DNA from: Kineosporia corallincola
GTDB taxonomy: Bacteria; Actinomycetota; Actinomycetes; Actinomycetales; Kineosporiaceae
Direction of reading: 5' to 3'
Length of the DNA stretch: 46,124 nucleotides
NCBI RefSeq assembly: GCF_018499875.1
Contig: NZ_JAHBAY010000027.1
Coordinates: 1 to 46,124, forward strand
The notes beneath the pieces were generated by a model, which saw nothing but the letters and a program-made list of their open reading frames with translations, was not told where the DNA came from and did no database searches. The position numbers and the translations under genes were made by a program. The stretch's first letter is position 1; every line of letters begins with the position of its first letter. Of this stretch, positions 3,515 through 45,256 are shown in pieces.

Positions 3515-3530
3515 CGCCAGAGCTCTGGCG
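3515..3530. repeat. Perfect 16-bp palindrome
   Basis: CGCCAGAGCTCTGGCG is a perfect palindrome in the non-coding gap between the RHS scrap and the 56-aa gene. Function unknown; it may be a protein-binding site or part of an old element end. Confidence 0.6.
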
Positions 3531-3556
3531 AGCCTAACCCAAGAATGATCGATGCT

Positions 3557-3595: not shown

Positions 3596-3617
3596 GCTAG
3601 ACTATATTAGCGAGTGA

Positions 3618-3788: not shown

Positions 3789-3821
3789 TCTTCTCCTTTG
3801 CAGTCGGTATTAGAAGATTTA

Positions 3822-23845: not shown

Positions 23846-23902
23846 ATGGATCCTGAACCGTCCACTGGTACACCAGTAAGGTGCTCTGCGGCACCGAGCA
23901 GC
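23846..23902 (+). pseudogene. Possible truncated gene start at the helicase junction
   Basis: ATG 23846 follows CTGGAGGAACCG, an excellent ribosome binding site spaced like those of the two upstream genes. It opens MDPEPSTGTPVR and then runs straight into the antisense 3' end of the helicase gene. I read it as the first codons of a third gene of this small cluster, cut off by the event that brought in the helicase remnant. The start is supported by its site only. Confidence 0.3.
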
Positions 23903-28041: not shown

Positions 28042-29115
28042 TTAGTGGGATTCGAGTGATTCCCGAAGGCTATCAACCTCGACTCCAAGGAGTGCCGCAT
28101 AGGGACGCAACGTGGCCTCGCCGCTCTCGTAGGCCCGGTAGGCATCGCGGCACAGCAATCCTGGCGGCCGGGGACGGCTGGACCTGGCCACCAGATCGGC
28201 ATACACGTCGCCCCGGCCGGCCATAGCGGCTGCTCGCGCGCTGCTCAGCTTTCTGAACCGGTCACAGACGCCGGCATCGATCAGCCGAAGATCTTTCAGC
28301 CGAAGCGCCAGGCTGCTAGGCGAAACCGCCAGCTCATCAGCCAGCCGCGCGAAGTCCGGCTCGTCGATCCCGGTGCCCCCGACGGCTTCCCGCAGCCGCG
28401 CTGACGGCATCAGGAGTGCAGCGGCGAACGCATTGGCCAGCCGCTCGCTCTCGTCCAGCCGGTACTTGGCGTTGTAGACATTCGCATCGATGTGAATCTG
28501 CTGATCGTCTCCGTTGAGGAGGTGACCCAGCTCGTGCGCGATCGTGAAACGCTGCCGGGCCGGCATCTGCGAGGTGCCGACCAGGATCAGCTTGGCCTCG
28601 TCGCTGGACACCGACAGACCGTCGAAGTCCTGCCCCAACGCACAGACCGTGACGTCCACACCGAAGGCGGCCTCCACCACCTCGGCAAGCTCTGGCTCGG
28701 AGACCGACCGTCCCACTTCCGTGATGCGCGCCCGTGCCGCGGCCGCCCGTTCTTCTGCGGAGCCCTGCCGAAGCCCACTAAGGTCGGGTTCGTGCCATGG
28801 CTGCCCGAACCCCAGGAAGGCCATGTCCGATCGCATCGTGCTGAGCCGCTGCGCCTCCTCCAGCGCCACGGCGGCGGTGCCCCCGGTGGAACGGGCAGCA
28901 ACGGCCAGCTCCGGCTCCGTGCCGGTGATCAGCCAATCGACCGTGACCCCACACAGCTCCGACACCTCCGCCAGGTCCAGCGAGCTGAACCTCCGGCTCC
29001 CGCTGAGCGACTTCGAAAGCTTCGTCGCGTCAAGGCCGATGCGCTCGGCGAAGACCCGATGCGTCAGGCCCGAGGCGGCGATGAGCTCACGCACCCGGTC
29101 AGCTGTGGTCGACAT
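28042..29115 (-). CDS. XRE-family regulator with ImmA/IrrE metallopeptidase domain
   Basis: I choose ATG 29115 (357 aa); the longer open frame upstream would run through the operator. An XRE HTH covers about 10-65 (ADRVRELIAASGLTHRVFAERIG, then LDATKLSKSLSG). The COG2856/ImmA-IrrE domain carries the zinc motif FTIAHELGHLLNGD (near residue 191) and downstream residues ANAFAAALLMP. ImmA proteases cleave repressors in mobile elements and IrrE triggers DNA-damage responses; here sensor and DNA-binding parts are fused. Divergent from drmD across 102 bp, it is a likely regulator of the DISARM operon. Confidence 0.88.
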   Translation of the reverse strand: MSTTADRVRELIAASGLTHRVFAERIGLDATKLSKSLSGSRRFSSLDLAEVSELCGVTVDWLITGTEPELAVAARSTGGTAAVALEEAQRLSTMRSDMAFLGFGQPWHEPDLSGLRQGSAEERAAAARARITEVGRSVSEPELAEVVEAAFGVDVTVCALGQDFDGLSVSSDEAKLILVGTSQMPARQRFTIAHELGHLLNGDDQQIHIDANVYNAKYRLDESERLANAFAAALLMPSARLREAVGGTGIDEPDFARLADELAVSPSSLALRLKDLRLIDAGVCDRFRKLSSARAAAMAGRGDVYADLVARSSRPRPPGLLCRDAYRAYESGEATLRPYAALLGVEVDSLRESLESH

Positions 29116-29135
29116 GCAACACACCCTATGGATCG

Positions 29136-29152
29136 GTTGCGATAATCGCAAC
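29136..29152. promoter_or_regulatory. 17-bp palindrome, candidate operator between xre-immA and drmD
   Basis: GTTGCGAT-A-ATCGCAAC is a perfect inverted repeat with a one-base centre, in the middle of the 102-bp divergent gap. Its position, 21 bases upstream of the regulator's start and 66 bases before drmD, fits an XRE operator controlling both directions. TTGCGA in the palindrome could serve as a -35 box for either direction. Confidence 0.65.
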
Positions 29153-29217
29153 GGAAGTGCAGCATAAGTGACCCGATGAGGTGCAGAACCACCCCGTCGA
29201 TGTTCTGAGGAGTGTGT

Positions 29218-32200
29218 GTGACAGCGCAATCGGTGGGCCCGGACCAGCGACGAGGCCTACCGCCGCTGCCGGAGCCGGGCCAGGTCGTCGAGGTCCGGGG
29301 CGGGAGCTGGGCCGTAGCCGATGTGCGCCAGCAAGGTCTGCCACGCAGTCCCGCTGACGAGACGGTCGCCGGCCTGAGCCATGTCGTGCGCCTGCAATCC
29401 CTGGACGAAGACCGCCTCGGCGAGGAGCTCTCCGTCGTCTGGGAGCTGGAACTCGGCCACACGGTCGCTCCGGACCAGGGGCTGCCCGAAACCATCGCCC
29501 CTGAGACGTTCGACGACCCGAACGTCCTCGCCGCCTTTGTCGACGCGGTGCGCTGGGGTGCCGTCACTTCCGCCGACACCAACTCGTACCAGGCCCCGTT
29601 CCGCAGTGGCGCCAATGTCGAGGCCTACCAGCTCGAGCCACTGAGCCGGGCACTCAGCGCGCCGCGCACGAACCTGCTGCTCGCCGACGACGTCGGCCTG
29701 GGCAAGACCATCGAAGCCGGCCTGGTCGTGCAGGAGTTGCTCCTGCGCCACCGCGCCCGCTCGGTCCTCATCCTGTGCCCACCCAGCCTCGCGGTGAAGT
29801 GGCAGGACGAGATGCGCGAGAAGTTCGGACTCGACTTCGTCATCGTGAACAGCGAACTGATGGCCCAGATCCGCCGCTCGCACGGCCTGAACGCCAATCC
29901 CTTCCTGCTGTTCCCCCGCACCATCATCAGCCTGGCCTGGCTGCCCACAGCCCGGGCACAGCGCCTGATGCGGACAGCGTTCGCCCAGACCCGCGAGGCC
30001 AACACCGCACGCCGCTACGCCTTCGACATCCTGGTCGTGGACGAGGCCCATCACGTCGCCCCGTCCAGCCCGAGCGCGGTCGGCGGGGGGCGCGGGTACG
30101 CCATCGACAGCCAGCGCACCATCGCCACACGCGCGCTCGCCGAGCACTGCGAGCACCGACTGTTCCTCAGCGCGACCCCGCACAACGGTCATCCGGAGTC
30201 GTTCACCGCGCTCCTGGAAATGATTGACAACCGACGCTTCACGCGAGGTGCGGTGCTCGACGAGAAGGCGCTGCGCGACGTCACCGTGCGGCGTCTCAAG
30301 AGTGAACTCACCGACAAGGACTTCAAGCAGCGCGAGTTGAAGACGCTCCCGTTCGATCCGGCCCCCGACGAACAGCGAGCCTTCGCCGAGCTGGACCGGA
30401 TCCTGACGGCCAGCGCCCAGCAGTCCGGTCGCAAGGGATCGAGCGCCGACATCGTGGCCCTGCTGCTGAAGAAGCGCTTCTTCTCCAGCCCCTGGTCGTT
30501 CGCGCGCACCCTGGAGCTGTACCAGCGCGCCGCTCCCGGAGGCGGCCTGCCCGACCTCGACGAGGACAACGACGAGATCTATCAGGAGACGCTCGGCTCG
30601 CTCCAGTCCGACGAGGAGGAGGGTGAGGCCGACCAGCCCGAGTTCAGTGTGCTGCGGCACAGCAAGAAGTCCGATCCCCTCGCCGCCGCCACCACCGCGC
30701 AGCTCGAGGCCCTGGTGTCGTGGGGCCGCGAGTACGAGCACCGACCGGACTCCCGGCTCAGTGCGCTGCTGACATGGCTGGACTCCCAGTGCCGCCCCGA
30801 TGGCAAGCTCTGGACGAACAACCGTGTGGTGATCTTCACCGAGTATGCGGCCACCCTGGAGTGGATCAAGAACGTCTTGGAGCAGAAGGGCTACCTGGGC
30901 CATCTCGACGTGATCCAGGGCTCGACCCCCCTCGACGAACGCGAAGACATCCGCGCGCGTTTCACCGAACCGCCCGAGCGCAACGATCTGCGAGTCCTGA
31001 TCGCCACCGACTCGGCCGGCGAAGGCATCGATCTCCAGCTCTACTGCCACCTGCTGGTCAACTTCGACATCCCGTTCAACCCTTCGCGGCTGGAGCAGCG
31101 CATCGGCCGCATCGACCGCTACAACCAGCCGCACCGTCCTGAGATCTACAACTTCAAACCGAGCACGACGTCCGAGACCTATTCCGCCGACCTGGAATTC
31201 ATGGACCGCATCGCCAAGAAGGTGGCCACCGTCGCCCAGGACCTCGGCTCGGTCAACCAGGTCATCGACGTTCAGCTGCGTCACCACTTCGGTTCGGCCG
31301 CCACCCGCAAGGCCAAGGCCAAGAACCAGCCGCTCGACGACGGCAACGCGATCATCGCCCGCAGCCTGGCCGGTGGCTCCACGCTCAACGCCAAGCTCAC
31401 CGAACTGTCCCGCAGCTACGACCAGCGCAAGGTCGACATGCACCTCACCCCGGCGAATGCCCGGCGCGTGATCGACACCGCGCTCACCCTGGCTGCCCAG
31501 CCCCCGCTGATCCCGGTCGGCAGTGAGCGCACCGACGCCCCGGTTTTCCAGATCCCCGCCCTCGGTGCCGGCTGGCAACCTGCCCTGGCCGGGCTCGACA
31601 CCCGCCGCACGCCGGGCGTCTGGCGTCACATCACCTTCGACGCCGACGCCGCCAAGGCCGACATCGACCTGGTCCACATCCATCTCGGTCACGCCCTGAT
31701 GCAGAAAGCGACCCGTCTGCTGCGTGGCAGCCTGTTCAGCTCCGACACCTCCGTGCACCGCGTAACCGCAGTGACCGTCCCGGATCTCACGGAATCCTGC
31801 GTGGCCGTCGTCTCCCGCCTGGTCCTGGTCGGCCGCGGGGGCCTTCGCCTGCACGAGGAGGTCTTCCTCACCGGCGTGCGCCTGCGTGGTGGACGGATCG
31901 CCGAGGACAAGGTGGAGGCGCTGCTCGACACGTCCCTGGACGGCGACGAGCTCGAACCGGTCACCGACCGGTTGCGCGCCAACCTCACCGAGCAGTGGAA
32001 CGCCGAGAACTCACGCATGCGAACGCAGTTGCTCGACGCGATGGAGGCCCGGGCCGCCACCAAGCAGAAGAACGTGCAGAAGCAGCTCGAGGCCCGCCAT
32101 CAGTCCGACGTGAAGCGCGCCCACGAAATCTTCGCGGCGTTCCGGGTCAATCTCGACGAATCGCAGAAGGATCTGCGCAAGAAGTTCGACGAGATGCTGC

Positions 32201-32397
32201 TCACCCCCGACGAGCAGGCCCAGATGCGCCGCAACCTCCGCGTCATGGACGACCGGCTGGAGTCCCTCGCCGACGAGGAGCAGCGCGAGATCGCCGCCCT
32301 GCACGACCGGTACGCCGACGTTCGTCCCCACGTCTCGGCCGCAGCCGTCGTCTTCGCCCTGACGGCCACGGACGCCGCACGTCTGGAGCAGCAGTGA
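29218..32397 (+). CDS. drmD: DrmD, SNF2-type helicase of class 1 DISARM
   Basis: I choose GTG 29218, five bases after AGGAG; earlier GTGs in the GTGTGTG run are too close to it. The protein has 1059 aa. Motif I is LLADDVGLGKTIEAGL (near 157), motif II ILVVDEAHHVAP (near 272), and motifs V-VI IATDSAGEGIDLQ and RLEQRIGRIDRYNQP (about 594-637). A long helical, charged C-terminal part (about 870-1040) follows. DrmD is the marker gene of class 1 DISARM, a multigene anti-phage system that restricts incoming DNA and marks host DNA by methylation. First gene of the five-gene operon; its stop overlaps the drmMI start (TGATG). Confidence 0.93.
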   Translation: MTAQSVGPDQRRGLPPLPEPGQVVEVRGGSWAVADVRQQGLPRSPADETVAGLSHVVRLQSLDEDRLGEELSVVWELELGHTVAPDQGLPETIAPETFDDPNVLAAFVDAVRWGAVTSADTNSYQAPFRSGANVEAYQLEPLSRALSAPRTNLLLADDVGLGKTIEAGLVVQELLLRHRARSVLILCPPSLAVKWQDEMREKFGLDFVIVNSELMAQIRRSHGLNANPFLLFPRTIISLAWLPTARAQRLMRTAFAQTREANTARRYAFDILVVDEAHHVAPSSPSAVGGGRGYAIDSQRTIATRALAEHCEHRLFLSATPHNGHPESFTALLEMIDNRRFTRGAVLDEKALRDVTVRRLKSELTDKDFKQRELKTLPFDPAPDEQRAFAELDRILTASAQQSGRKGSSADIVALLLKKRFFSSPWSFARTLELYQRAAPGGGLPDLDEDNDEIYQETLGSLQSDEEEGEADQPEFSVLRHSKKSDPLAAATTAQLEALVSWGREYEHRPDSRLSALLTWLDSQCRPDGKLWTNNRVVIFTEYAATLEWIKNVLEQKGYLGHLDVIQGSTPLDEREDIRARFTEPPERNDLRVLIATDSAGEGIDLQLYCHLLVNFDIPFNPSRLEQRIGRIDRYNQPHRPEIYNFKPSTTSETYSADLEFMDRIAKKVATVAQDLGSVNQVIDVQLRHHFGSAATRKAKAKNQPLDDGNAIIARSLAGGSTLNAKLTELSRSYDQRKVDMHLTPANARRVIDTALTLAAQPPLIPVGSERTDAPVFQIPALGAGWQPALAGLDTRRTPGVWRHITFDADAAKADIDLVHIHLGHALMQKATRLLRGSLFSSDTSVHRVTAVTVPDLTESCVAVVSRLVLVGRGGLRLHEEVFLTGVRLRGGRIAEDKVEALLDTSLDGDELEPVTDRLRANLTEQWNAENSRMRTQLLDAMEARAATKQKNVQKQLEARHQSDVKRAHEIFAAFRVNLDESQKDLRKKFDEMLLTPDEQAQMRRNLRVMDDRLESLADEEQREIAALHDRYADVRPHVSAAAVVFALTATDAARLEQQ

Positions 32398-35300
32398 TGA
32401 ACCGCCCCCGCACCTCCGCCCGCACCGGTAGCGACCTGCACCGGGCCTGGCTGCAACTGGTCGACACCGACGGGCCGTTCCTCTCCGTGCCGGCCCTGAA
32501 AAGGGTCTGGCCGCAGGGCATGCCGACACTCGACCCAGAGATCCGAGACCGGATCCGCGACGCTAAGCCGGCGTTCGAGAACGCCTGGGACAGGTGGAAC
32601 ACCCACCACGACGACGCGGGCGCGCTCGACACCTTCCGGGCTGAGCGGGACATCTGGGTCGACACCGTGATCCGCGATGTGCTCGGCTGGGGCGACCTCT
32701 ACACCACTCAGCTGTCAGGGACCGAGTTCACGGACGCCGCCGGCGGGGTCGGGTCTCAGAACAACAGTGTTCGGGTGGTTCCGTCGGGAGCGTTGGCCCG
32801 CAACGGCCAGATCGGTGCCCTCGTCCTCGTCATCGATCCGGTGGATTCACTGCGCGACTCACTCAGCGACGGCTGGGCCAACTCCCCCGTCGACCGGATG
32901 GAGATGCTGCTGAAGAAGGCAGACGTCCCCATCGGCCTGGTCACCGACGGCCGCTGGTGGGCTCTGGTCAGCGGCATCCGCGAAGCGGCGATCACCGCGT
33001 CCGGCATCGTCAACTCCGAGGACTGGATCTCCGAACCGGCCACCACCGCCGCGTTCGTCGAACTGCTCCAGCGTAAATACCTGGTGGGCAAGTCAGCTCA
33101 GCGTCTGGCGCTGGTGTTCAAGGATTCGGTCGCCGCGGCCGAGGAGATCACCGAGGCCCTCGGCGTGCAGGTGCGCCGGGCCGTGGAGCTTCTGGTGCAG
33201 TCCCTTTCGGAATCGGCTGTCACCACCCGGCACAGCGGCCAGCCCGACCCGCTGCCGGACGACCGGGCACAGGTGTACGAGGCCGCGGTCACGGTCATGA
33301 TGCGCGTGGTGTTCCTGCTCTTCGCCGAGGAACGGAACCTGCTGCCGCAGAGCGAGCTGTTCACCAACGGTTACGGTGTCAGCCGCGAACTCGACTCACT
33401 CGACCAGCGCGCCCGCGACGAGCACACCGAGTCACTCGACTCCACGCACCTGACCTGGCACCGCCTCCTCGCCACCTCGCTGGCTCTGTACGAGGGCGCC
33501 TCGTTCGAAGACATGCGCATGCCCGCATACGGCGGCTCGCTGTTCGATCCTTACCGTTTCCCGTTCCTGGCCCAGCGCAACGCCCACGGCAGCCTGGCCG
33601 TGGCGGTCAGCGACCGGGTGATGCTCGAGGTACTCCGCGCTGTGCAGATGGCCCAGCTGAAGGGGCAGCCCGCCCAGCGCATCTCGTTCCGCGAGATCGA
33701 CGTCGAGCAGATCGGCTACATCTACGAGGGTCTGCTCGGCTACTCGTGCGAGGCCGTCGACGAGGTGATCGTGGGCCTCATCGGCAGCCCGGGCGCCGAA
33801 CCCGAGATCCCCCTGTCCGAGCTGGAAGCTCTGGCCGAGAAACACGCCACCCCGGAGAAACTCGCCACTGCCCTGCTCGCCTCGCTCAAGGCCGGCCAGC
33901 CCGCTGCCAAGCCACCCACGAAGGCCGCCCTGGCCAAGGGTTTCAAGGCGGCCGAGACCGTCGAAGACACCGACCGCGCTCTTCGTTCCATCAGTGACGA
34001 CGAAAACCTGCGCGCCCGGCTCCAGCCGTTCATCGGCGTGATCCGCCGTGACCTGCGCAACCGCCCCACCGTGTTCCAGCCCGGCGGGCTCGTCGTGATC
34101 GAGACCCCGTCACGTTCGTCGGCCGGCGCCCACTACACCCCACGGCGCCTCGCCGAGGATGTCGTCGAATATGCTCTGGAACCGCTGGTCTACCGCCCGG
34201 GCCCACACCAGACCGACGACCGCTCGCAGTGGGTACTGATCCCCCACTACGAGATCACCAATCTCAAGATCGCCGATATTGCCTGCGGTTCAGGAGCCTT
34301 CCTGGTCGCCGCGGCTCGCCGGCTGGGTAGCTACCTGCAAGAGGCCTGGCTCGCCCGGGGCATCGTGCACGGCGAGGCCCGCGACCAGGAGATCCACGCC
34401 ATCCGCACCGTGGTCGCGCAGTGCCTGTACGGCGCCGACATCAACGCGATGGCCGTGGAGATGTGCAAGCTCTCGCTCTGGCTGGTCTCGCTCGACCCCA
34501 AGCTGCCGTTCTCGTTTGTGGACGACAAGGTGTTCCATGGCAATTCACTGCTCGGCCTGACCGACGTGCGGCAGCTGACGAAGATGCACATCGACCCCGA
34601 GGCAATCATCCAAGACACCCTGGGCATCGACACCCAGAGCGGCAGCGCCCACCTGCCGGTCGACATCAACCACGTGCTCGCCCAGGCGGTGCACCTGCGT
34701 GAAGCCCTGGCCTCCGAGATCAACAACACCGACCCGCACCGCTCGGCTGAGGCCAAGCGCGGCATGTGGCGCGACTACCAGAAACACACCGCCCAGCTGG
34801 CCGAAGCCGCAGACGGCGTGATCGCGGCGGGGCTCCGGCTCGGCGGCAAACCCGGCAAGCAGCTCGATCAGGCCTACGAGAACCTTCGTACGGCAGCAAC
34901 GCTCGCCTACCAGACCATCGGCACACCGAACCGGAGCATGCTGGAGGGCATTCTCGAAGCCGGCCTGACGCCCACCGTCACCACCGACTACGCCCGATGG
35001 AAGCCCCTGCACTGGATCCTGGCCGTGCCCGATGTGCTCCAGCCGAACCGGGGCGGGTTCGATGCGGTGGTGGGCAATCCGCCATTCCTCGGCGGTAAGA
35101 AGATTTCAGGCTACGCTGGCTCGAACCTTCGGGAATGGCTCGTCAACCAGCTGGCGGGCGATGCCAAGGGTAACGCCGACCTCGTGGCCTACTTCTTCCT
35201 CCGCGCGCAGCGCCTGCTCAACCCCCGCGGAACGATCGGCCTCATCGCCACCAACACGCTGGCTCAGGGCGACACCCGCGAGGTCGGCCTCGACCAGATG

Positions 35301-36470
35301 GTCCAGAACGGCTTCACCATCACCCGGGCCGTGCAGAGCAAGTCCTGGCCAGCCGCCAGCGCTAATCTCGAGTACGCGGCGGTCTGGGGCACCGTAGCCA
35401 CTGTCCCCGAAAGGGTTCTCCGCGTATGCGATGACATTTTGGTACGGAAAGTCTCGACTCTGCTGGAGCCGATGGGCCGGGTGGAAGGCCCTCCGAGGAG
35501 GCTCAATGAGAATCTTGGAATCGCCTTCATCGGCTGCTACGTACTCGGCAAGGGCTTCGTCCTGGATCCGTCGGAGGCCCGGGCCTGGATCGCCGACGAT
35601 CCCCGCAACGTCGAAGTCCTATTTCCCTACTTGAACGGCGAGGACTTGAATTCTCGTCATGATTCTTCCCCTTCTCGTTGGGTGGTTGACTTTGCTGACT
35701 CCTCCATGGAGAAGGCAGCGAGATACACGCAACCTTTTAAGCACCTCTCGAATAGCGTCAAAGGCGAAAGAGCCACCAAGGCCAAAGCTGTCAGAGATTG
35801 GCCTTGGTGGCAGTTCTGGAGGGCCCGTCCCAAGCTGCGTAAGGCGCTGTCAGATCTCGACGAGGTCCTCGTCATCGCACTCGTCAGCAAGACCGTCATG
35901 CCGATGCGAGTTCCGTCAGACCAGGTCTTCAGTCACATGCTCGGTGTCTTCGCCACCTCATCCCACACCGACCAAGCCGTCCTCTCCTCCAGCCTTCACC
36001 AGACCTGGGCCATCAAGTACGGCTCCGGCATGCGAGCCGACCCCCGCTACACCCCCTCCGACGTCTTCGAGACCTTCCCCCGCCCCACACCGACCCCGAC
36101 CTTGGACCAAATCGGCCGTACACTCGACACCGAGCGCCGCGAGATCATGCTCCGTCGCGACCTGGGCCTGACCAGGCTCTACAACCTGGTCAATGACCCC
36201 GATATCAGCAATTCCGATAAAGACGTGGCCCGGATGCGCGAGATCCACGTTGAGCTGGACGAGGCCGTGGTCGCGGCGTACGGCTGGGATGTTCCGCTGG
36301 ATCACGGTTTTCACACCTACCGGCAGATGACCCGCTGGAGTCCCAGCCCTGCCGCGCGCGTGGAGCTGATGGATCTGCTGCTGGAAGAGAATCACCGCCG
36401 GGCGGCATTGCAGGGTGAGGCTCCCCCGCCCGCCGAAACGACCGATGAGAACGACGGGGACGAGTCATGA
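32397..36470 (+). CDS. drmMI: DrmMI, adenine DNA methyltransferase of class 1 DISARM
   Basis: ATG 32397 overlaps the drmD stop by one base. The protein has 1357 aa. An N-terminal region with a nuclease-like or recognition fold contains LLFAEERNLLPQ (near 310). The methyltransferase core has motif I IADIACGSGAFLVAA (near 624) and motif IV VVGNPPFLGG (near 891), with NPPF typical of N6-adenine methylases of the Eco57I/PglX type. The C-terminal 350 residues look like target recognition plus a tail (DDPRNVEVLFPYLNGEDL). In DISARM the methylase protects host DNA. It overlaps drmA by 4 bases. Confidence 0.94.
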   Translation: MNRPRTSARTGSDLHRAWLQLVDTDGPFLSVPALKRVWPQGMPTLDPEIRDRIRDAKPAFENAWDRWNTHHDDAGALDTFRAERDIWVDTVIRDVLGWGDLYTTQLSGTEFTDAAGGVGSQNNSVRVVPSGALARNGQIGALVLVIDPVDSLRDSLSDGWANSPVDRMEMLLKKADVPIGLVTDGRWWALVSGIREAAITASGIVNSEDWISEPATTAAFVELLQRKYLVGKSAQRLALVFKDSVAAAEEITEALGVQVRRAVELLVQSLSESAVTTRHSGQPDPLPDDRAQVYEAAVTVMMRVVFLLFAEERNLLPQSELFTNGYGVSRELDSLDQRARDEHTESLDSTHLTWHRLLATSLALYEGASFEDMRMPAYGGSLFDPYRFPFLAQRNAHGSLAVAVSDRVMLEVLRAVQMAQLKGQPAQRISFREIDVEQIGYIYEGLLGYSCEAVDEVIVGLIGSPGAEPEIPLSELEALAEKHATPEKLATALLASLKAGQPAAKPPTKAALAKGFKAAETVEDTDRALRSISDDENLRARLQPFIGVIRRDLRNRPTVFQPGGLVVIETPSRSSAGAHYTPRRLAEDVVEYALEPLVYRPGPHQTDDRSQWVLIPHYEITNLKIADIACGSGAFLVAAARRLGSYLQEAWLARGIVHGEARDQEIHAIRTVVAQCLYGADINAMAVEMCKLSLWLVSLDPKLPFSFVDDKVFHGNSLLGLTDVRQLTKMHIDPEAIIQDTLGIDTQSGSAHLPVDINHVLAQAVHLREALASEINNTDPHRSAEAKRGMWRDYQKHTAQLAEAADGVIAAGLRLGGKPGKQLDQAYENLRTAATLAYQTIGTPNRSMLEGILEAGLTPTVTTDYARWKPLHWILAVPDVLQPNRGGFDAVVGNPPFLGGKKISGYAGSNLREWLVNQLAGDAKGNADLVAYFFLRAQRLLNPRGTIGLIATNTLAQGDTREVGLDQMVQNGFTITRAVQSKSWPAASANLEYAAVWGTVATVPERVLRVCDDILVRKVSTLLEPMGRVEGPPRRLNENLGIAFIGCYVLGKGFVLDPSEARAWIADDPRNVEVLFPYLNGEDLNSRHDSSPSRWVVDFADSSMEKAARYTQPFKHLSNSVKGERATKAKAVRDWPWWQFWRARPKLRKALSDLDEVLVIALVSKTVMPMRVPSDQVFSHMLGVFATSSHTDQAVLSSSLHQTWAIKYGSGMRADPRYTPSDVFETFPRPTPTPTLDQIGRTLDTERREIMLRRDLGLTRLYNLVNDPDISNSDKDVARMREIHVELDEAVVAAYGWDVPLDHGFHTYRQMTRWSPSPAARVELMDLLLEENHRRAALQGEAPPPAETTDENDGDES

Positions 36471-39400
36471 CCAGCCCGACCACGAAGCGGCCGGCCGAGA
36501 AGGTCTACGACCTCTCGTTCGAGCCGGACGGCCGGGCGTACACCGCCCGGCAGAACCTGGCCGACATCTTCGAGCGGGAGCTGCTGGGGCCGGCCAACGG
36601 GCTGGAAGAGGTGCTCGACGGGTCGCCCGACGCCGCCTACCTGGTGGGCCGGATCGCGCCGACCGCCATCGAGCCCGGCACGTCCGATCCCACGGCGTCC
36701 GACGACGAGCTGGCTGCCACCGACGTCGGTGACGCTGTGGATGCCGAGGCCAGTCGCGGCGTCATCATGACGGCGGTGGACGACAGTTCGGCCTCTGCCG
36801 ACGAGGACGAGGTGGACGACGTCCCGCAGCAGCGGGGGCTGATCATTCCGGCGTCCATGGGTCTGCGGTTCCAGGTACGCCAGGATCTGCCGTCGTTCAT
36901 GGTGATGGCGTCGTGGGGCATTTACAACCCGGTCTCGGGGGATCGGGACGACCCGGAGTCGCGCAAGAAGACCAAGTACAAGCGCACTCCGGTCGACATC
37001 CCCTGCGTCGTCACGGTGGCCGATCTCAAGGCCGGCGAGACGAAGGACTACCCGCTCAAAGACGACGTGCTCCTGCGGATCGACCGTTACGACGACACCG
37101 AGCGCAATCGTCTGCTGATCGAGGTGGCCCTGTGCAACAACCAGGTGACGCCGCGGAAGATCCCGGTGAGTGCCTGGCTCTACCAGACGAAGCTCTACGT
37201 CTCGGCGGGCGACGATCCCGAATTCCTGCCCGTGCTCGATGTTCTGGACGACGATCGCTACGAGCCGGACACCGAGATCCGGCGGCTGAACCTTCAGTAT
37301 CGTAACCGCCTGGAGTTCGCGATCGGGCGCACCTGTTCGGTGGACTGGAGCGTCGCCAAGGGTGCCCGCAAGGCGTCCAAGGTGTGGACGACGTGGCTGC
37401 CCACCAGCGAGACGCCGCAGACCCTGGCCCCTGACGTGCCAGGCACAACGCTCGATATGCTGAAGCTGGCCGATGCGTCGGCCGGCGACATCCAGGCCGG
37501 GCTGGCGCCGATCGCCGAGAAGTACTGGGATTGGCTGCAAGACCGCGACGAACAGGCCGCGCGGCTTCCCGACCACCTGCGTGAGGACGCCGACGAGCTG
37601 GTCAGGGAGGCCCGGAAGGTCTGGCAGCAGCTCCAGGACGGCCTGCATCATCTCGCCTCGGACGAAGAGGCGCTGCGCTGCTTCCGCTTCATGAACCAGG
37701 TGATGGCCGACCAGCGTATTCAGTCGCAGGTGGCGGCTCTTCGCACGAATCAGCCGGAGCTGGGCCTCGACGAGGCGCGCGCGCAGGTGCTCGCCCGGGG
37801 GCCGCGAGCGCACTCGTGGCGTATGTTCCAGCTGGCCTTCATCGTGATGCAGTTGCCGATGCTGACGGATCCGACGGCAGACCGGCGCTCGCACGACGAG
37901 CTGGCCAAGGCTCAGTTGCTGTTCTTCCCGACCGGTGGTGGTAAGACTGAGGCGTATCTGGGTCTGGCCGCTTACACGTTCGCGATCCGCCGGCGTCAGG
38001 GTGTGATTGCCTCTGCCGAGGGTGATCTCGACGGGATGTCGGGTATCGCAGTCGTCATGCGGTACACGTTGCGGCTGCTGACGGCTCAGCAGTTCCAGCG
38101 GGCGACGACGCTGATCTGCGCGGCTGAGAACGAGCGCCGGGATCATTCGGATGTGTGGGGTGAGGAGCCGTTCCGGATCGGGCTGTGGGTGGGGTCGGAC
38201 GTCAGTCCCAAGCGGTACCAGGATGCGGCCACCCAGCTGAGCCAGTTCAACGAGGGCCGCACGCGTCGGCTGACGGTGTTGCAGATCCAGCGCTGCCCCT
38301 GGTGCGGCACGAAGATCGGTGGCGGTCAGGTCAAGGCCGACGACGTCACCCGCCGGATCCGGGTGTTCTGCGGTGAGGAGTTCGGCGAGTGCCCGTTCGC
38401 CCTGGGTGGTGACGCGGTGGACGGGCTGCCGATTCTGACCGTGGACGAGGAGATCTACCGGCTCACGCCGTCTTTCCTGATCGCGACCGTGGACAAGTTC
38501 GCGCGGCTGGCGCGTGAGGGTGAGGCGGCCGCGCTGTTCGGCTACGTCTCGCGGAGGTGTGACCGGCACGGGTACGTCCATCCGGACTACGACGGCTGCG
38601 ACATCAAAGACGGCAACAAGCACCCGAAGTCCGGGAGCGTGCCGGCCGCGGCGGTGCACCCGGTGTCCCGGCTGCGCCCGCCGGACCTGATCATCCAGGA
38701 CGAGTTGCATCTGATCACGGGTTCTTTGGGGACGACGGTCGGCCTGTTCGAAGTGGCCTTCGACATGCTCTGCTCGTGGCAGACCCCCGAAGGTGACCCC
38801 GTGCGTCCCCTGGTGGTCGCCTCCACCGCCACCGCCCGCAACGCGGTGGATCAGGTGCGGGCCCTGTACGGGCGCGGTACCACCGTGTTCCCGCCGCAGG
38901 TGATCGATGTGGGGCACACATTCTTCTCGCAGGAACAGCCGATCACCGAGAAGATGCCGGGCCGCCGGTACGTCGGGGTGAGCACGACCGGGGTCCGCCT
39001 GACCACGGCGGAGATCCGGGTGACCGAGATCCTGATGGCGGCCGGGCAGTTGCTGCTGGACCGTTCGGTGCACGAGAGCGGTGTGGACGCCGACCCGTAT
39101 CTGACGCTCGTCGCGTACTTCAATGCGACCCGGGAGCTCGCGGGTATGGCCCGGTATCTCGGTGACGACGTGCAGACGCTGCTGGCCAAGGGACGTCCGT
39201 GGTCGGCTCTTCCGCGGCGCCGCGGAACGGATTTCGGGTCTCTGCACGTGGCCGAGCTGACGTCGCGGGTGTCGAGCGTCGACATCGGTACGACGCTCGA
39301 CGAGATGGCCGTACCGTTCTCGTCGGAGCAGGACTCCACGGTGGCTCGCCGTCTGGCTGCCAGTGGGGAGCGGGTGCCGCCGAGGCGGAAGACCAATCCG

Positions 39401-40174
39401 TTCGACGCTGTTCTGGCTACCTCGATGCTCCAGGTCGGGGTGGATGTCACCCGGCTCGGGCTGATGCTCATGGTCGGGCAGCCGAAGAACACGGCCGAGT
39501 ACATCCAGGCGTCGTCCCGGGTCGGCCGGGAGGCGGACCGGCCGGGTCTGGTGGTCAGTCTCGGGAACTGGGCCCGCCCGCGGGACCTGGCTCATTTCGA
39601 GCAGTTCCGTCACTACCACGAGACGTTCTACGCGCAGGTGGAAGCTCTGTCGGTCACGCCGTTCTCGCTGACCTCGATGGAACGAGGTCTCAGCGCTCTC
39701 CTGGTGAGCGCGGCCAGGGTGCGCGATGCGGCTGTTCCCCAGGGGCTTTCGCCGGAGCTGAAGGCCGGGCGGATCGACGACGAACGGCAGCGGGTCTGCG
39801 AGCTGATCGACGTTCTGGTGAGCCGGATCTGCAAGGCGTCGGGCGAGCCGGAGGCCCAGGTCGCCCGGCAGCAGTTGCTGAGCCGTCTGGACCAGTGGGA
39901 GAACCGCAAGACTGCCCTGGACGCCCGCAGCCAGGGGCTGGCCTACGAGAAGGTCGGCCGGAAGAACGATTACGGTGCTTTGCTGATCAGCGCGGAGAAC
40001 GCGGCGGGGCTCCCGTCGTCCAGGGACGTGCCGCCGTTCCGGGTGCCGAACTCGATGCGTGAGGTGCAGCCCGAGATCAACCTGCTGGTCAGCCCCAACC
40101 CGGACAAGCTCTTCATGGAGCCGACACCGGGCACACCGCGCTGGCAGCCGCCCACCGAGGAGAACGACGCGTGA
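36467..40174 (+). CDS. drmA: DrmA, helicase of DISARM
   Basis: The gene encodes 1235 aa from ATG 36467 (ATGA overlap with drmMI). Walker A is LLFFPTGGGKTEAYLGL (near 488), and the DExH box is DLIIQDELHLITGSLG (near 742). Motifs V/VI are LATSMLQVGVDVTRLGLML and YIQASSRVGR (about 984-1025). A Cys cluster sits between (RCPWCGTKIGGG, VFCGEEFGECPF, about 607-645), a likely zinc site. DrmA with DrmB forms the core DISARM complex that engages unmethylated, especially 5'-overhang, DNA. It overlaps drmB by 4 bases. Confidence 0.94.
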   Translation: MTSPTTKRPAEKVYDLSFEPDGRAYTARQNLADIFERELLGPANGLEEVLDGSPDAAYLVGRIAPTAIEPGTSDPTASDDELAATDVGDAVDAEASRGVIMTAVDDSSASADEDEVDDVPQQRGLIIPASMGLRFQVRQDLPSFMVMASWGIYNPVSGDRDDPESRKKTKYKRTPVDIPCVVTVADLKAGETKDYPLKDDVLLRIDRYDDTERNRLLIEVALCNNQVTPRKIPVSAWLYQTKLYVSAGDDPEFLPVLDVLDDDRYEPDTEIRRLNLQYRNRLEFAIGRTCSVDWSVAKGARKASKVWTTWLPTSETPQTLAPDVPGTTLDMLKLADASAGDIQAGLAPIAEKYWDWLQDRDEQAARLPDHLREDADELVREARKVWQQLQDGLHHLASDEEALRCFRFMNQVMADQRIQSQVAALRTNQPELGLDEARAQVLARGPRAHSWRMFQLAFIVMQLPMLTDPTADRRSHDELAKAQLLFFPTGGGKTEAYLGLAAYTFAIRRRQGVIASAEGDLDGMSGIAVVMRYTLRLLTAQQFQRATTLICAAENERRDHSDVWGEEPFRIGLWVGSDVSPKRYQDAATQLSQFNEGRTRRLTVLQIQRCPWCGTKIGGGQVKADDVTRRIRVFCGEEFGECPFALGGDAVDGLPILTVDEEIYRLTPSFLIATVDKFARLAREGEAAALFGYVSRRCDRHGYVHPDYDGCDIKDGNKHPKSGSVPAAAVHPVSRLRPPDLIIQDELHLITGSLGTTVGLFEVAFDMLCSWQTPEGDPVRPLVVASTATARNAVDQVRALYGRGTTVFPPQVIDVGHTFFSQEQPITEKMPGRRYVGVSTTGVRLTTAEIRVTEILMAAGQLLLDRSVHESGVDADPYLTLVAYFNATRELAGMARYLGDDVQTLLAKGRPWSALPRRRGTDFGSLHVAELTSRVSSVDIGTTLDEMAVPFSSEQDSTVARRLAASGERVPPRRKTNPFDAVLATSMLQVGVDVTRLGLMLMVGQPKNTAEYIQASSRVGREADRPGLVVSLGNWARPRDLAHFEQFRHYHETFYAQVEALSVTPFSLTSMERGLSALLVSAARVRDAAVPQGLSPELKAGRIDDERQRVCELIDVLVSRICKASGEPEAQVARQQLLSRLDQWENRKTALDARSQGLAYEKVGRKNDYGALLISAENAAGLPSSRDVPPFRVPNSMREVQPEINLLVSPNPDKLFMEPTPGTPRWQPPTEENDA

Positions 40175-42225
40175 CCGACAACCTGCTCGACCCGCTGGGC
40201 GATGCCGCTGCGCTGTCGGAGTCCGGGGCGAAGAAGAACTACGCCAAGGTGGGATCGGCCCGGCCGTCGTCCCTGCTGTACAACTACGGGCCGGGGGCGA
40301 TCATGGACCTGCCCCAGTTCACGGTGATGCCGGCCGGGCTGGACGACTGGGACCGGATCTGGGCCCGCCGTGACGGCATCCCGCGCATTCATGCGCCGCG
40401 CCTTCAGGCGGCTGTGCGGACGCTGATGGGGACGGACCGGACCGAACTGCGGCCGTTTCCCTGGCAGGCCAAGAAGACGTTCATGTCGTCCGAAGGTAAC
40501 GACCTGGGCGTCCCCTCCAGGGTTTTCCCGCAGTGGCTGCGCTGCACCGGATGTGACTTCCTGGCCCCGATCCCCCGGTTCTCGTACCGCAACACCCATC
40601 CGTACCGCACCGACGAGGCCTGCTTCGAGCATCACAACTGCCCGGGCCGCGCCGAGGAACGCGTGTCCAGGGACAAGACGCCGAACCGCAAGCGGCCCAC
40701 CCGCACGGCGGTGCCGGCCCGCTACCTGCTGGCCTGCGTGGACGGGCACCTGGACGAATTTCCTTACGACGCCTGGGTACACCATTGGCAGAAATGCTCC
40801 AAGGACTCTCACCCGCGCCTGAAGATGCTGGACCGCACGTCCGGCAAGGGTGCTTCGGCCACCATCCTCTGCGCCTCCTGCGGGCAGAAGCGCCCGATGA
40901 ACGAGGCTCAGGGTGAGGTCGGGCGCAGCAAGCTGCCCGGATGCCGGGGCCGGCACCCGCATCTGGATTCCTTCGATCCGGCTGGGTGCGGGAACGAGAC
41001 GCAGCTGATGCTGGTCGGTGCGTCGAACCTGTGGTTCGCGTCCACCCAGGCGATCATCGTGATGCCCGAGTCGCAGGCCCGTGACGAGGAGGTCGCCGAC
41101 CAGTTGCGGATCGATCTGCAAGACGGCCAGGAGCTCGACACCGACGCCGAGCTGCTGGAGTGGCTGACCGAGAACGGTGATCAGCCGAAGCTGTTGCGCG
41201 TCTCCCTCGGCAAGCGCCCGTCGACGGCCTTCTCCGACGCCGAGCTCGCCGCCGCCGTCAAGGTCCTCCTGGCGCCGCCTCCGCCGGAGTCCGAGCGCAA
41301 GCGCCGCAAGGAGAACTGGGACCCGATCGAGCTGCTCATCCCCGAGTGGCGTTACCTCCAGAAGGATCCGCTGGGTCGGCAGCACGACGGTTCGGACGCC
41401 GACAAGAGCGGGCTGGTCCTGTCCAGGCGTGAGCTGGATCCGCAGCTGCCGAAGCACTTCTCCCGGGTGCTGGCCGCCGAGAAGCTGCGTAAGGTGAACG
41501 CGCTGATCGGGTTCACCCGGATCGACGACATGGATCGTGTCGACGACCTGCCCAAGCGCCTGGTTCCGGTGACCCGCGCCGAGAAGCCCATGTGGACCGT
41601 CGCCACCGAGGACTTCGGGGAAGGCATCTTCCTTCAGCTCGACGAGTCCTGGGTGCGGGCCTGGGAGGCGCGGGTCAAGAAGTCCGACATCTGGGCCGCC
41701 CACGAAGCCGCGCACCGTCTCAATTTCGAGCGCAGGTTCTCCGAGACGGCCAAGAACGTCGACCATCTCGACCGGCTGCCCAAACCCCGGTACTGGCTGG
41801 TGCACACCCTGGCCCATGTGCTGATCCGCGAGATGGCCATGACGTCCGGGTACTCGGCCGCGAGCCTCAGCGAAAGGTTGTACGCCTGGGAAGAGGGAAG
41901 TGATCGTCCGGCCGCCGCCGGTCTGCTGATCTGCACGACGGCGGCCGACAGCGACGGCACGCTCGGCGGTCTCGTGCAGCTGAGCGAGCCGGCCAGGCTC
42001 CAGAAGATCGTCAAGGATGCTCTGCATCGGGCCGAACGATGCTCCTCCGACCCGGTCTGTGCGATGCGCACGCCGAAAGCCCCCGAGGACTTCCTGCACG
42101 GCGCGGCCTGCCACTGCTGCGCCATGGCCTCGGAGACGTCCTGCGAGCGCGCCAACCGATTTCTCGACCGGCGCTTCCTGATCGATCTCCCGGGCAACAA
42201 CCTCGGCTTCTTCAGTCGTGCCTGA
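40171..42225 (+). CDS. drmB: DrmB, DUF1998 protein of DISARM
   Basis: The gene encodes 684 aa from GTG 40171. An N-terminal region with LLYNYGPGAIMDLPQF is typical of DrmB. Cys motifs occur at about 123 (LRCTGCDF) and 233 (CASCGQKRP). The DUF1998 domain has LVHTLAHVLIREMAMTSGYSA (near 545) and the Cys-rich end HGAACHCCAMASETSCERANRFLDR (near 647; motif shown in part). DrmB partners DrmA in the core complex. It overlaps drmC by 8 bases. Confidence 0.93.
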   Translation: MTDNLLDPLGDAAALSESGAKKNYAKVGSARPSSLLYNYGPGAIMDLPQFTVMPAGLDDWDRIWARRDGIPRIHAPRLQAAVRTLMGTDRTELRPFPWQAKKTFMSSEGNDLGVPSRVFPQWLRCTGCDFLAPIPRFSYRNTHPYRTDEACFEHHNCPGRAEERVSRDKTPNRKRPTRTAVPARYLLACVDGHLDEFPYDAWVHHWQKCSKDSHPRLKMLDRTSGKGASATILCASCGQKRPMNEAQGEVGRSKLPGCRGRHPHLDSFDPAGCGNETQLMLVGASNLWFASTQAIIVMPESQARDEEVADQLRIDLQDGQELDTDAELLEWLTENGDQPKLLRVSLGKRPSTAFSDAELAAAVKVLLAPPPPESERKRRKENWDPIELLIPEWRYLQKDPLGRQHDGSDADKSGLVLSRRELDPQLPKHFSRVLAAEKLRKVNALIGFTRIDDMDRVDDLPKRLVPVTRAEKPMWTVATEDFGEGIFLQLDESWVRAWEARVKKSDIWAAHEAAHRLNFERRFSETAKNVDHLDRLPKPRYWLVHTLAHVLIREMAMTSGYSAASLSERLYAWEEGSDRPAAAGLLICTTAADSDGTLGGLVQLSEPARLQKIVKDALHRAERCSSDPVCAMRTPKAPEDFLHGAACHCCAMASETSCERANRFLDRRFLIDLPGNNLGFFSRA

Positions 42226-42943
42226 CCATGCTCTGCGAGACCTGGGTGCCTTTCTCACCGGCACCGAGGCCGCTGTCCTGGCTGCCCGTTTCGCCGACGG
42301 TGACACTCTGACCGCTGCTCTGGGCAGTATCGGGGCGTCCCGGCGGGACCAGGTGCGTCACCTGCTCAGGGAGGCCGGGCTGGGGCCCGCGACCCGGGAG
42401 CGTACGTGCGAGGTTCTCCGCGCCATTGAAGGTGCGCGTTCGGACGTCCGTGATCTGGCGACCGTCTGGACGATGCCCGGCCATCTGTCCCAGGCCGGGC
42501 CACTGACCACCTCGGCCGCTCATCTGGTCGACGGGGCGCGGACCTCGGTGATGTGTTCGACATACAACTTCCAGCGCACGTCGGCTCTCTGGCCGGCCCT
42601 TCAGGACGCGGCCCGGCGCCCAGGCCTGGCTGTCACGGTCTACCTGGACACAGCAGCCGGCCGGAAGGGTTCTCGCACGCCCTCTCCCGAGGAGGTTGCC
42701 GTTCATCTGCGGCCGGCCCGGGTGCTGCGCACCAAGCCGTTCGGTGGTTCGCTCGTGCGCAACCACGCCAAGTTTCTCGTGGTCGATCACCGGTTTCTGC
42801 TGATCAGCAGCGCCAACTTCTCCCGCAGTGCCGAGTACGAGAACGTCGAGCTGGGTGTCCGGGTGGACGACGTGGCCCTGGCCGAGTCGGTCGAACGCGA
42901 AATGCAGCGGGTGGAAGGCGTTCTGTACGAGCCGGCCGGTTGA
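42218..42943 (+). CDS. drmC: DrmC, phospholipase D-like protein of DISARM
   Basis: The gene encodes 241 aa from GTG 42218, inside the last codons of drmB. A single HKD-type motif is visible (NHAKFLVVD, near 183), followed by SSANFSRSAEYENVELGV, the usual PLD continuation. One motif per chain implies a dimeric active site, as in bacterial PLD nucleases. DrmC is the common but reportedly less essential fifth DISARM component. It ends the operon; a 108-bp gap follows, with only a weak inverted repeat (TTCAGG/CCTGAA, 42949-42971). Confidence 0.9.
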   Translation: MPDHALRDLGAFLTGTEAAVLAARFADGDTLTAALGSIGASRRDQVRHLLREAGLGPATRERTCEVLRAIEGARSDVRDLATVWTMPGHLSQAGPLTTSAAHLVDGARTSVMCSTYNFQRTSALWPALQDAARRPGLAVTVYLDTAAGRKGSRTPSPEEVAVHLRPARVLRTKPFGGSLVRNHAKFLVVDHRFLLISSANFSRSAEYENVELGVRVDDVALAESVEREMQRVEGVLYEPAG

Positions 42944-43051: not shown

Positions 43052-45256
43052 GTGCCGCACCTCGCCCTGACGAAGTCCTGCTGGCAGAACTTCGAGCAGC
43101 TCGAGAAGCCGGTCCGCAATGGTGTGCACAAGGCGATGGACAAGTTCCGTGAGCTCACCGTTCCTCAACTGCACGCCGACAAGGGTCTTCACCTCGAGCA
43201 GGTGAAGAATGCCGCCGACCCGCGTATGCGCACCATCCGGATCACCGACTTCTGGCGCGGTGTCGTCCTCGCTCCCGATCCGGACACGAAAGACGGCCAG
43301 GCCGGCACCTTCCTCCTGGTCGACGTGGTGCCCCACGACGAGGCCTACGCCAAGGCCAAGAAGCTGCTGTTCAGCGTGAACTCCGCGACGCTCGGGCTCG
43401 AGGTCCGCGACGTCACCGTGATCGACCAGCTCACCAAAAGCATGGAGATCATCGAGACACCCCCAGCACCCGACCGGACTCCCCCGCCTGTTCTTCCGCG
43501 GCTGTTCGCCGGCGTCAGTGACAACGACATGCAACGGCTCGGTGTCGACGAGCAGGTGCTGCAGGCGGTCCGCCTGCTCACCGAGCATTCCCAGCTGAGC
43601 ACCTTCGGGCCGTTCTTTCCCGAGGACCAGTACGAAGTGCTCCAGCTGCTCTCCCTCGGCTTCAGCGTCGACGAGGTCTACCAGCAGGTGATCGTCACCC
43701 GCCGGCCGAGCGAACCGGTCAAGCCGGGCGAAAGCAGCCTGGAGAAGGCGATCGTCTCCACCCCGAACCGGGTCCGGGTGATCACCAGCTCCGACGAACT
43801 GCGCCAGGCCCTGGAGCAGCCACTCATCGCCTGGAAGACCTTCCTTCACGCGTCCCAGCGCAAGGTGGCCTATCACCCCCGGTTCAACGGCCCGGTGCAG
43901 GTTTCCGGAGGCCCCGGCACCGGGAAGACCGTCGTCGCACTGCACCGGGTGAAACACCTCCTCGACCGGTACCCCGGGCACCGGGTGCTGCTCACGACCT
44001 ATACCAATGCGCTGGCCGACAGCCTCCAGGAGAACCTGCGGCTGGTGCTGGACGACGATGCCGAGCGCCTGGAGCGTGTCCATGTGTCCACGGTGAACCG
44101 CATGGCCGTGGCCCAGATCCGCAAACTGAAGAATGCCTCCCCCTCCCTGCTGGGTGACGAGGACGACCGGAAGATCTGGCGCCGCATCCGCAAGGACCTC
44201 GATCTGCCCTGGAGCGACCAGTTCCTCGTGCAGGAGTACCGGAATGTGGTCCTGGCCCAGCAGATCCGCACCCTCGACGCGTACCAGACGGCCGACCGGC
44301 CGGGGCGCGGTGCCGGGCTACGGCGTCAGAGTGCACAGCGTGAGCAGATCTGGGGCGCGATCGAGCGCTATCACGCCGAGACCGAGGCCGTCGGCACGAT
44401 GACGCACACGGCAGCCTGCCAGGCCGCAGCCGACATCGCCTTCGGGCACCCCGGTATCGCCGTGCAGTACGACCACGTCGTGGTCGACGAGGCTCAGGAC
44501 CTCCACCCGGCGCAGTGGCGATTCCTGCGGGCGGTCGCTCCCGAGGGACCGGACGATCTGTTCATCACCGGTGATCCCCACCAGAGGATCTACGATTCAC
44601 AGACTTCCCTTTCAGCAGTCGGAATCAAGGTGACCGGCCGCAGCCGGCGACTGCGTATCAACTACCGCAGCACCGAGGAGATCCTGACCTGGTCGACCGG
44701 GATTCTCACCGGCGCCCCGATCAGCGACATGAGCGGCAACGGCCACGACTCGCTGACCGGATACCGGTCCCTGCTGCACGGCGCCCCGCCCGTCGTCACC
44801 GGCCACGGCACCGAAGCCGCTGAGATCGATGCTCTGGTGAAACAAGTGCTGACGTGGTGCGATGCCGGTATGGAAACGGCAGACATCGCTATCTGTAGTC
44901 GTTTTCGCATGCCTCTGCTCGACAAGGCGGCCAAGGCACTGGCCGACGCAGGCATCAAGAGTGTCAAGGTCGACAGCCGCCCAGGCCCCGGCGTCCCGGG
45001 TGTCCGGCTGGCCACCGCCCACGCGATGAAAGGCCTGGAGTTCCGGGCTGTCGCGGTGCTCGGCGTGACCGCGAAGTCGTTTCCGTTCGCGCCCGGCATC
45101 ACCGCGGCCGACGTTGACCAGGTGCAGCACGACAGCGACATCCTGCGCGACCGCTGTCTGCTGTTCGTCGCCTGCACCAGGGCACGCGAAGCACTGGCGG
45201 TTTCGTGGAGTGGACCTGAGAGCAGCTTCATCACGCCGCTTCTCAGGAAACAATGA
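43052..45256 (+). CDS. SF1 (UvrD-like) helicase with RelE-like N-terminal domain
   Basis: GTG 43052 follows CAGGAGGAACG, a strong ribosome binding site. The protein has 734 aa. Residues 1-110 resemble RelE/ParE-type proteins (NFEQLEKPVRNGVHKAMDKF, GLHLEQVKNAADPRMRTIRI, then FWRGVVL and LVDVVPHDEAYAKAK). Helicase motifs follow: Walker A SGGPGTGKTVVALH (near 284), VVVDEAQDLHPAQW (near 475), GDPHQRIY, INYRST (near 535), ATAHAMKGLEFRAV (near 650) and VACTRAREAL (near 710). Helicases fused to such a domain are widespread in actinobacteria, mostly uncharacterised. It follows DISARM in the same direction but with its own ribosome binding site. Confidence 0.85.
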   Translation: MPHLALTKSCWQNFEQLEKPVRNGVHKAMDKFRELTVPQLHADKGLHLEQVKNAADPRMRTIRITDFWRGVVLAPDPDTKDGQAGTFLLVDVVPHDEAYAKAKKLLFSVNSATLGLEVRDVTVIDQLTKSMEIIETPPAPDRTPPPVLPRLFAGVSDNDMQRLGVDEQVLQAVRLLTEHSQLSTFGPFFPEDQYEVLQLLSLGFSVDEVYQQVIVTRRPSEPVKPGESSLEKAIVSTPNRVRVITSSDELRQALEQPLIAWKTFLHASQRKVAYHPRFNGPVQVSGGPGTGKTVVALHRVKHLLDRYPGHRVLLTTYTNALADSLQENLRLVLDDDAERLERVHVSTVNRMAVAQIRKLKNASPSLLGDEDDRKIWRRIRKDLDLPWSDQFLVQEYRNVVLAQQIRTLDAYQTADRPGRGAGLRRQSAQREQIWGAIERYHAETEAVGTMTHTAACQAAADIAFGHPGIAVQYDHVVVDEAQDLHPAQWRFLRAVAPEGPDDLFITGDPHQRIYDSQTSLSAVGIKVTGRSRRLRINYRSTEEILTWSTGILTGAPISDMSGNGHDSLTGYRSLLHGAPPVVTGHGTEAAEIDALVKQVLTWCDAGMETADIAICSRFRMPLLDKAAKALADAGIKSVKVDSRPGPGVPGVRLATAHAMKGLEFRAVAVLGVTAKSFPFAPGITAADVDQVQHDSDILRDRCLLFVACTRAREALAVSWSGPESSFITPLLRKQ

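Follow-up and report, generated by a model that had tools for sequence, protein, structure and literature searches.

A class 1 DISARM operon in Kineosporia corallincola, probably controlled by a divergent toxin-antitoxin-like gene pair

How is a DISARM (defense island system associated with restriction-modification) operon switched on? Little is described on this point in the literature that we covered. We address it here at a locus of Kineosporia corallincola. The window that we analyzed is one whole contig of 46,124 bases (GCF_018499875.1, NZ_JAHBAY010000027.1; 8.2-Mb assembly, 53 contigs), and positions 29218-42943 of its forward strand almost certainly form a complete class 1 DISARM operon, drmD-drmMI-drmA-drmB-drmC. 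Immediately upstream, transcribed divergently from drmD, lies a toxin-antitoxin-like gene pair, encoding a fusion of a helix-turn-helix (HTH) domain to an M78 protease and a PIN-like protein. We conclude that this pair probably controls the operon.

The signature of class 1 systems is an SNF2-like helicase, DrmD, together with an adenine methylase, DrmMI, in the order D-MI-A-B-C; DrmD and DrmC assist in DISARM. The first-pass annotation, made from the letters alone, had proposed a complete operon of this class, with five forward-strand genes each overlapping the next by 1-8 bases and with catalytic motifs present, and open reading frames (ORFs) and profiles bear this out. The core genes drmA and drmB are found with drmD, drmMI and a drmC of the phospholipase D family, in the class 1 order. 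The SNF2-like helicase gene drmD (29218-32397) scores 1216 bits with NCBIfam NF038317 DISARM_DrmD (cut-off 610) and 1267 bits with PADLOC DrmD; a GTG at 29212 is open too, and the GTG at 29218 has the better-placed AGGAG. The type IIG-like adenine methyltransferase gene drmMI starts at 32397 (ATG) or 32394 (GTG) and ends at 36470 (PADLOC DrmMI, 1595 bits). It is followed by drmA, a superfamily 2 helicase of the short form (36467-40174; NF038325 DISARM_DrmAS, 1322 bits, cut-off 950), by drmB (40171-42225; NF038324 DrmB_fam, 657 bits, cut-off 240), whose 'DUF1998' appears in Pfam as the MrfA Zn-binding domain (MZB), and by drmC, with one HxK motif (42218-42943; NF038319 DISARM_DrmC_I, 163 bits, cut-off 133; PADLOC DrmC, 351 bits). 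NCBIfam thus names four of the five proteins above cut-off, and PADLOC names DrmMI. Overlaps at the successive junctions are 4 (1 with the ATG start of drmMI), 4, 4 and 8 bases. The translations contain DDVGLGKT, VDEAHH and QRIGRIDR in DrmD, DIACGSGAF and NPPF in DrmMI, FPTGGGKT and QDELH in DrmA, and HAKFLVVD...SSANFS in DrmC, which we take to be the functional motifs of these enzymes; that the system is active, as the first-pass annotation expected, is a prediction from these intact motifs.

Residues 36-1210 of DrmA match the Serratia DrmA structure (7s9v_A, E 2e-214), and DrmB matches 7s9v_B in two stretches (E 1.9e-110). Counted on the alignment, V1200 of the window's DrmA faces Serratia V1296, proposed as a methylation sensor in the available part of PMC9142583. 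The gene order recurs in relatives with long enough loci (for example L006, L010 and L021). Only one DrmD match above cut-off is present in the whole assembly, and none at E <=1e-150 in 12 other genomes of the host family. As a system, the DISARM of the window is ordinary.

As to the extent of the system, the earlier annotation had the operon right; it stopped at drmD and overlooked the gene pair and the palindrome beyond it. The first gene of the pair (28042-29115, reverse strand) encodes a single 357-aa chain in which an HTH and an M78 (IrrE-like) protease are joined, our proposed repressor-sensor. Pfam Peptidase_M78 matches at 71 bits (cut-off 22), HTH models of Pfam come only near or below cut-off, PADLOC returns CapP (79 bits) and RmrA (64 bits), and the PDB matches are IrrE, CapP and an HTH regulator. 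The HExxH motif of the protease is kept in 49 of 50 aligned HTH-M78 proteins. Directly downstream, on the same strand, an unannotated gene (27464-28039, with a second GTG at 28024) encodes the PIN-like protein, a proposed toxin. No Pfam PIN model matches any of 24 members of this family, NCBIfam gives nothing for the three members tested and PADLOC gives weak matches only; since profiles failed to identify the family, we turned to the fold. This is a PIN fold with acidic active-site residues, as in VapC-like PIN proteins, with a Foldseek E of only 0.025. An antitoxin-like HTH-M78 protein beside a toxin-like gene is also the arrangement of RosmerTA and XRE-COG2856 modules, whereas CapH/CapP has separate repressor and protease genes where the window has one chain. 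Judged from its sequence, the pair looks like a toxin with its sensor-repressor.

What could link this pair to DISARM is a palindrome, GTTGCGATAATCGCAAC (29136-29152), within the 102 bases that separate the start codons at 29115 and 29218. Inside it, our proposed operator TTGCGATAATCGCAA (29137-29151), in which half-sites TTGCGA and TCGCAA flank TAA, has no other exact match in the assembly; TTGCGANNNTCGCAA is found once there, for about 0.2 expected from base composition. The proposed drmD promoter (29137-29165, forward strand) has its -35 box TTGCGA at 29137-29142 and, after 17 bp, its -10 box CAGCAT at 29160-29165. The proposed HTH-M78 promoter (29123-29151, reverse strand) has TTGCGA at 29151-29146 and, again after 17 bp, TAGGGT at 29128-29123; with the start codon at 29115, its transcript is perhaps leaderless. 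Each half-site thus resembles a -35 box, one for each of the divergent promoters. With both -10 boxes at this spacing in the window, the two -35 boxes can come from the palindrome itself, and binding of a single dimer could shut off transcription in both directions.

Is this arrangement found elsewhere? We scanned species genomes for DrmD and retained the best 80 of 84 relatives as loci (L006-L085). An HTH-M78 orthologue (47-60% identity) lies divergent from drmD, within 700 bases, in 19 of the 80, and a PIN match follows it in 16 of these, L008 and L063 being too short to show one. The exact palindrome is present upstream of drmD in 13 of the 19 loci with the regulator (twice in L020) and in none of the 61 without it (Fisher 9e-11; all Fisher values given here ignore kinship among loci). 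Allowing one mismatch adds L006 and L010, for 15 of 19, while in the 61 regulator-free loci the 600 bases ahead of drmD, or as many of them as the locus contains, include no site even at <=2 mismatches. The only other exact site in the 80 loci, in L074, is beside a 36%-identical HTH-M78 gene. There (351-12772), distant drmA-drmB-like genes precede the HTH-M78/PIN pair and palindrome on the same strand, and a DrmD-like gene occupies 9980-12772.

We also collected the regulator independently of DrmD, from a class sample of 394 genomes (cut-off E <=1e-60) and from 341 genomes of family f25 (cut-off E <=1e-55), which together give 29 HTH-M78 loci besides the window. They overlap partly with the DrmD loci: the regulators of L136 and L140 are those of L010 and L032, and that of L122 is nearly that of L014. 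The palindrome is exact in 19 of the 29, has one mismatch in 8 and is missing in 2; a PIN neighbor, sometimes as a partial match, is present in 28, and DrmD in 5. Eight of the 394 class genomes, own genome included, carry the regulator, with an exact site beside 5, overlapping one-mismatch sites beside 2 and none beside 1. The pattern occurs in 34 of the 394 genomes and its backward control, by hand count, in 26, so that mere presence in a genome means little. The center of the site and its neighbors are more telling. Among 32 sites outside the own genome (leaving out the site of G069 and second sites of G369 and G089), 7 are beside an HTH-M78 relative, in one case (G207) with a match limited to the HTH part, and these are 7 of the 10 sites with an all-A/T center versus 0 of 22 with other centers. 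This counters the notion of a chance site. L132 (1018-14666; regulator 39% identical) carries pair and palindrome among Wadjet JetA/JetC and SbcD-like genes. In L124, a regulator without PIN match has a type III methyltransferase at a distance of about 5-6 kb, and the intervening protein has weak type III nuclease matches.

Promoter elements were compared by aligning 18 DISARM-linked sites (duplicate L136 dropped) and 24 stand-alone pairs on the palindrome. On the drmD side, the left TTGCGA is followed at a distance of exactly 17 bp by a -10-like NANNNT in 13 of 18 DISARM-linked sites, compared with 2 of 24 stand-alone ones (p 4e-5, for a motif picked after the alignment was seen); at eight other spacings tried, NANNNT reaches at most 3 of 18. 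On the HTH-M78 side, a TAGGGT-like -10 box at 17 bp is present in 19 of the 24 stand-alone pairs.

In a quick-method tree of 50 HTH-M78 proteins, from which L008 and L063 were left out as too short, the 23 DISARM-linked proteins form a single group that also takes in 3 unlinked proteins; link labels change 3 times, compared with a shuffled mean of about 17, and branch support is 94, below the starred level. In a tree of 79 DrmD proteins (FastTree, midpoint root; L081 and L084 too short), the regulator is confined to one group of 53, in which 19 have it, window included, with 8 changes. Members of the regulator group in the HTH-M78 tree come from Pseudonocardiaceae, Streptomycetaceae, Nocardiaceae, Streptosporangiaceae, Propionibacteriaceae and Intrasporangiaceae. 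One acquisition of the regulator followed by losses fits these trees, and is not proved by them. We rejected the idea that every class 1 DISARM operon has a regulator of one general kind at its upstream end: in the 61 regulator-free loci, the first ORF upstream, detected in 59 of them, does not belong to one family, the largest clusters having 5, 3 and 3 members, on ORFs called by a crude GC-position score and some of them wrong.

How would such a switch work? A dimer of the HTH-M78 protein, bound to TTGCGA and TCGCAA with three A/T positions between them, would block both -35 boxes and keep expression of DISARM and of the PIN gene at a low level. The M78 protease would be activated by a signal, for example single-stranded DNA arising through infection or damage, and would remove the repressor, a step modelled on ImmA and CapP, which remove their repressors by proteolysis according to the available parts of PMC10440598 and PMC13373217. 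Once DISARM is induced, DrmMI would mark host DNA and DrmAB would recognize unmethylated DNA that carries a 5' overhang (PMC9142583, in the part available). The PIN RNase would be freed simultaneously, as a fallback growth brake. The parts of this scheme differ in strength. Repression of DISARM by the HTH-M78 protein is, on the sequence evidence, likely; we see even chances that repression is released by the protease, and slightly lower ones that the PIN toxin acts in the same response as DISARM. Only tentatively do we suggest a two-tier switch, in which a single HTH-M78 sensor-repressor on the palindrome serves both promoters and one protease event both induces DISARM and sets free a growth-arresting PIN RNase, a wiring that arose once and was kept across several actinomycete families.

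Several observations weigh against control by this pair. The regulator is missing from 61 of 80 DrmD loci, hence DISARM does not need it; conversely, DrmD adjoins the regulator in only 4 of the 8 class-sample genomes (own included) and 2 of 22 in f25. No recognizable site is found in 4 of the 19 regulator loci (L008, L014, L032 and L063), nor in L122 and L140. The drmD-side -10 box is absent in 5 of 18 DISARM-linked sites, and that of the HTH-M78 side is irregular there (17 bp in 5 of 18, 18 bp in 5, 16 bp in 4). The unlinked L119, L120 and L121 fall inside the DISARM-linked regulator group, L020 carries the regulator without a PIN match, and the PIN identity comes from fold and acidic residues, with that best Foldseek E of 0.025.

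Some of these facts would be expected if the pair were an autonomous toxin-antitoxin element that settled once beside drmD and has hitch-hiked since, its palindrome serving its own promoter while the drmD promoter is constitutive. The regulator-free DISARM loci fit such a neighbor, as do the f25 copies, 20 of 22 of which have no DrmD alongside and varied neighbors, and the palindrome is closer to the HTH-M78 start than to the drmD start. We nevertheless hold this to be unlikely: the drmD-side -10 box at exactly 17 bp is found mainly in DISARM-linked copies, and the linked regulators form one group across several families, which indicates that the arrangement persisted.

A somewhat less likely explanation still is that the pair guards DISARM by addiction, loss of the region freeing a stable toxin. 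Toxin-antitoxin guards have been described for CRISPR-Cas, and the adjacency of toxin-like and antitoxin-like genes, like the clustering of DISARM-linked regulators in the tree, would suit one here. A guard would, however, require neither the shared -35 region nor a drmD-side -10 box, and a protease motif kept in nearly all HTH-M78 proteins points to a sensor. That the operon is decayed or silent is very improbable given five open, overlapping genes with their motifs, long matches to the Serratia proteins and the sensing valine in place. A BREX/Pgl-type system is hardly conceivable: the methylase does share motifs with PglX, but at 38 bits in PADLOC against 1595 for DrmMI, DrmD scores 230 bits with BrxHI against 1267 with its own model, for no protein of the operon is a BREX model the top PADLOC match, and NCBIfam, in which no model names DrmMI, offers for it only BREX methylases, PglX among them, far below cut-off (37 bits for 500), so that the profile check suggested in the first-pass annotation returned Drm hits with BREX/Pgl far lower.

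Control of DISARM by the divergent pair can be set against known systems, each described here from the part of its source that was available. The class 1 DISARM of Serratia sp. SCBI (PDB 7s9v, PMC9142583) has the same drmD/MI/A/B/C set, and its DrmA and DrmB align with ours over most of their length; it carries an extra 5-cytosine methyltransferase, absent from the five genes of the window, whereas the window has a divergent HTH-M78/PIN pair sharing the promoter region. An HTH-ImmA/M78 fusion likewise stands beside a PIN-like gene in XRE-COG2856 + PIN modules (Makarova 2009, PMC2701414) and in RosmerTA (PMC10440598), and PADLOC RmrA matches our HTH-M78 protein. They differ in that our PIN family is unmatched by Pfam and NCBIfam PIN models and matched weakly by PADLOC, its toxin role being predicted, and in that the palindromic promoter region is common to DISARM. 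CapH + CapP (PMC13373217), a DNA-damage regulator of defense operons, also puts an HTH and an M78 protease beside such an operon, there as two proteins, here as a single fusion accompanied by a PIN partner. BrxR/CapW and RptR (PMC12255303) are likewise regulators linked to defense operons; the former carry a WYL domain, and RptR, which has a conserved palindrome, binds a different operator, TAGCTA. The CapW/BrxR and CapH+CapP families are stated to control adjacent defense operons, BREX, Pycsar, CBASS and DISARM being named (PMC13373217, available part); the idea that a DNA-damage sensor regulates DISARM is therefore not new. Our literature search found no report of an HTH-M78/PIN pair with DISARM among the matches listed, on the basis of titles and the openings of abstracts, with subscription papers mostly outside coverage. 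Within that scope, we found in print neither the fused chain next to DISARM, nor a PIN gene paired with it, nor a common -35 palindrome.

DrmMI deserves a separate comment. The earlier reading as an N6-adenine methylase undersells the protein, whose architecture is that of a type IIG enzyme (best PADLOC REase_MTase_IIG score, 625 bits). Its N-terminus (32397-33650) has a restriction-endonuclease-like fold for which VIA realignment ranks type IIG first; Foldseek finds nothing below E 1.4 for it, from a moderate model (mean predicted local distance difference test score, pLDDT, 75.5). BpuSI, DrdV and MmeI share the nuclease-like fold, methyltransferase and target-recognition domains; what sets DrmMI apart is that the core strands of its nuclease-like domain contain no (D/E)xK in any of 76 aligned rows, and the D..(E/D)xK motif of type IIG nucleases is not found there.

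In 15 of 59 relatives with full drmMI, a partial reverse-strand copy directly follows the gene, spanning residue ~940, 1035 or 1160 to 1340 at 45-67% identity (L007, L019, L031, L042, L045, L049, L050, L051, L056, L059, L065, L070, L071, L077 and L082; at ~17200-18500 in most). The insert separates drmMI from drmA. Inverted repeats are present at 12 of the 15 (only 32 bases in L065), compared with 0 of 5 insert-free loci checked, and eight inserts scanned contain a serine recombinase in seven cases and an integrase in one. Eighteen further contigs break off within drmMI, and in 12 the break falls between residues 937 and 1183. These features suggest a phase-variable DISARM, in which the recognition domain of DrmMI is switched by inversion. 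The arrangement is absent from the window; on DrmMI inversion, nothing was found among the matches of a literature search with the same coverage.

Other genes of the window were considered as parts of the system. Directly downstream of DISARM, a UvrD-like helicase gene and an SprT-like metalloprotease gene overlap by 4 bases (43052-45966). We rejected them as DISARM components: homologues (E <=1e-40) occur in 18 of 49 searched DISARM genomes, from a search given 50 of the 80 loci, with no steady link. Six of the 80 loci, which end about 10 kb after drmD, before the far side of drmC, have a UvrD-like helicase gene no more than 10 kb from drmD. Beyond the PIN gene, away from DISARM, are a 349-aa ORF (26000-27049, forward strand), where G+C is low (0.518) and for which Pfam, NCBIfam and PADLOC give no match, and a 643-aa protein (23902-25833, reverse strand) with the C-terminal part of a superfamily 1 helicase and a DUF2726 end, which resembles the C-terminal part of Mokosh/Hhe-type defense proteins. 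A type II/IV secretion ATPase (14564-16750) and an RHS-repeat protein of 1638 aa (3822-8738) are encoded farther away, both on the reverse strand.

The locus offers a testable control module for DISARM, with a 15-bp operator, a likely repressor and a protease motif that can be mutated. The unannotated PIN-like family paired with HTH-M78 proteins adds to the possible defense toxins. If our reading is true, a direct defense, DISARM, would be joined to a toxin via one sensor. Such a link would go some way to explaining how the cell keeps a costly system silent until it is infected.

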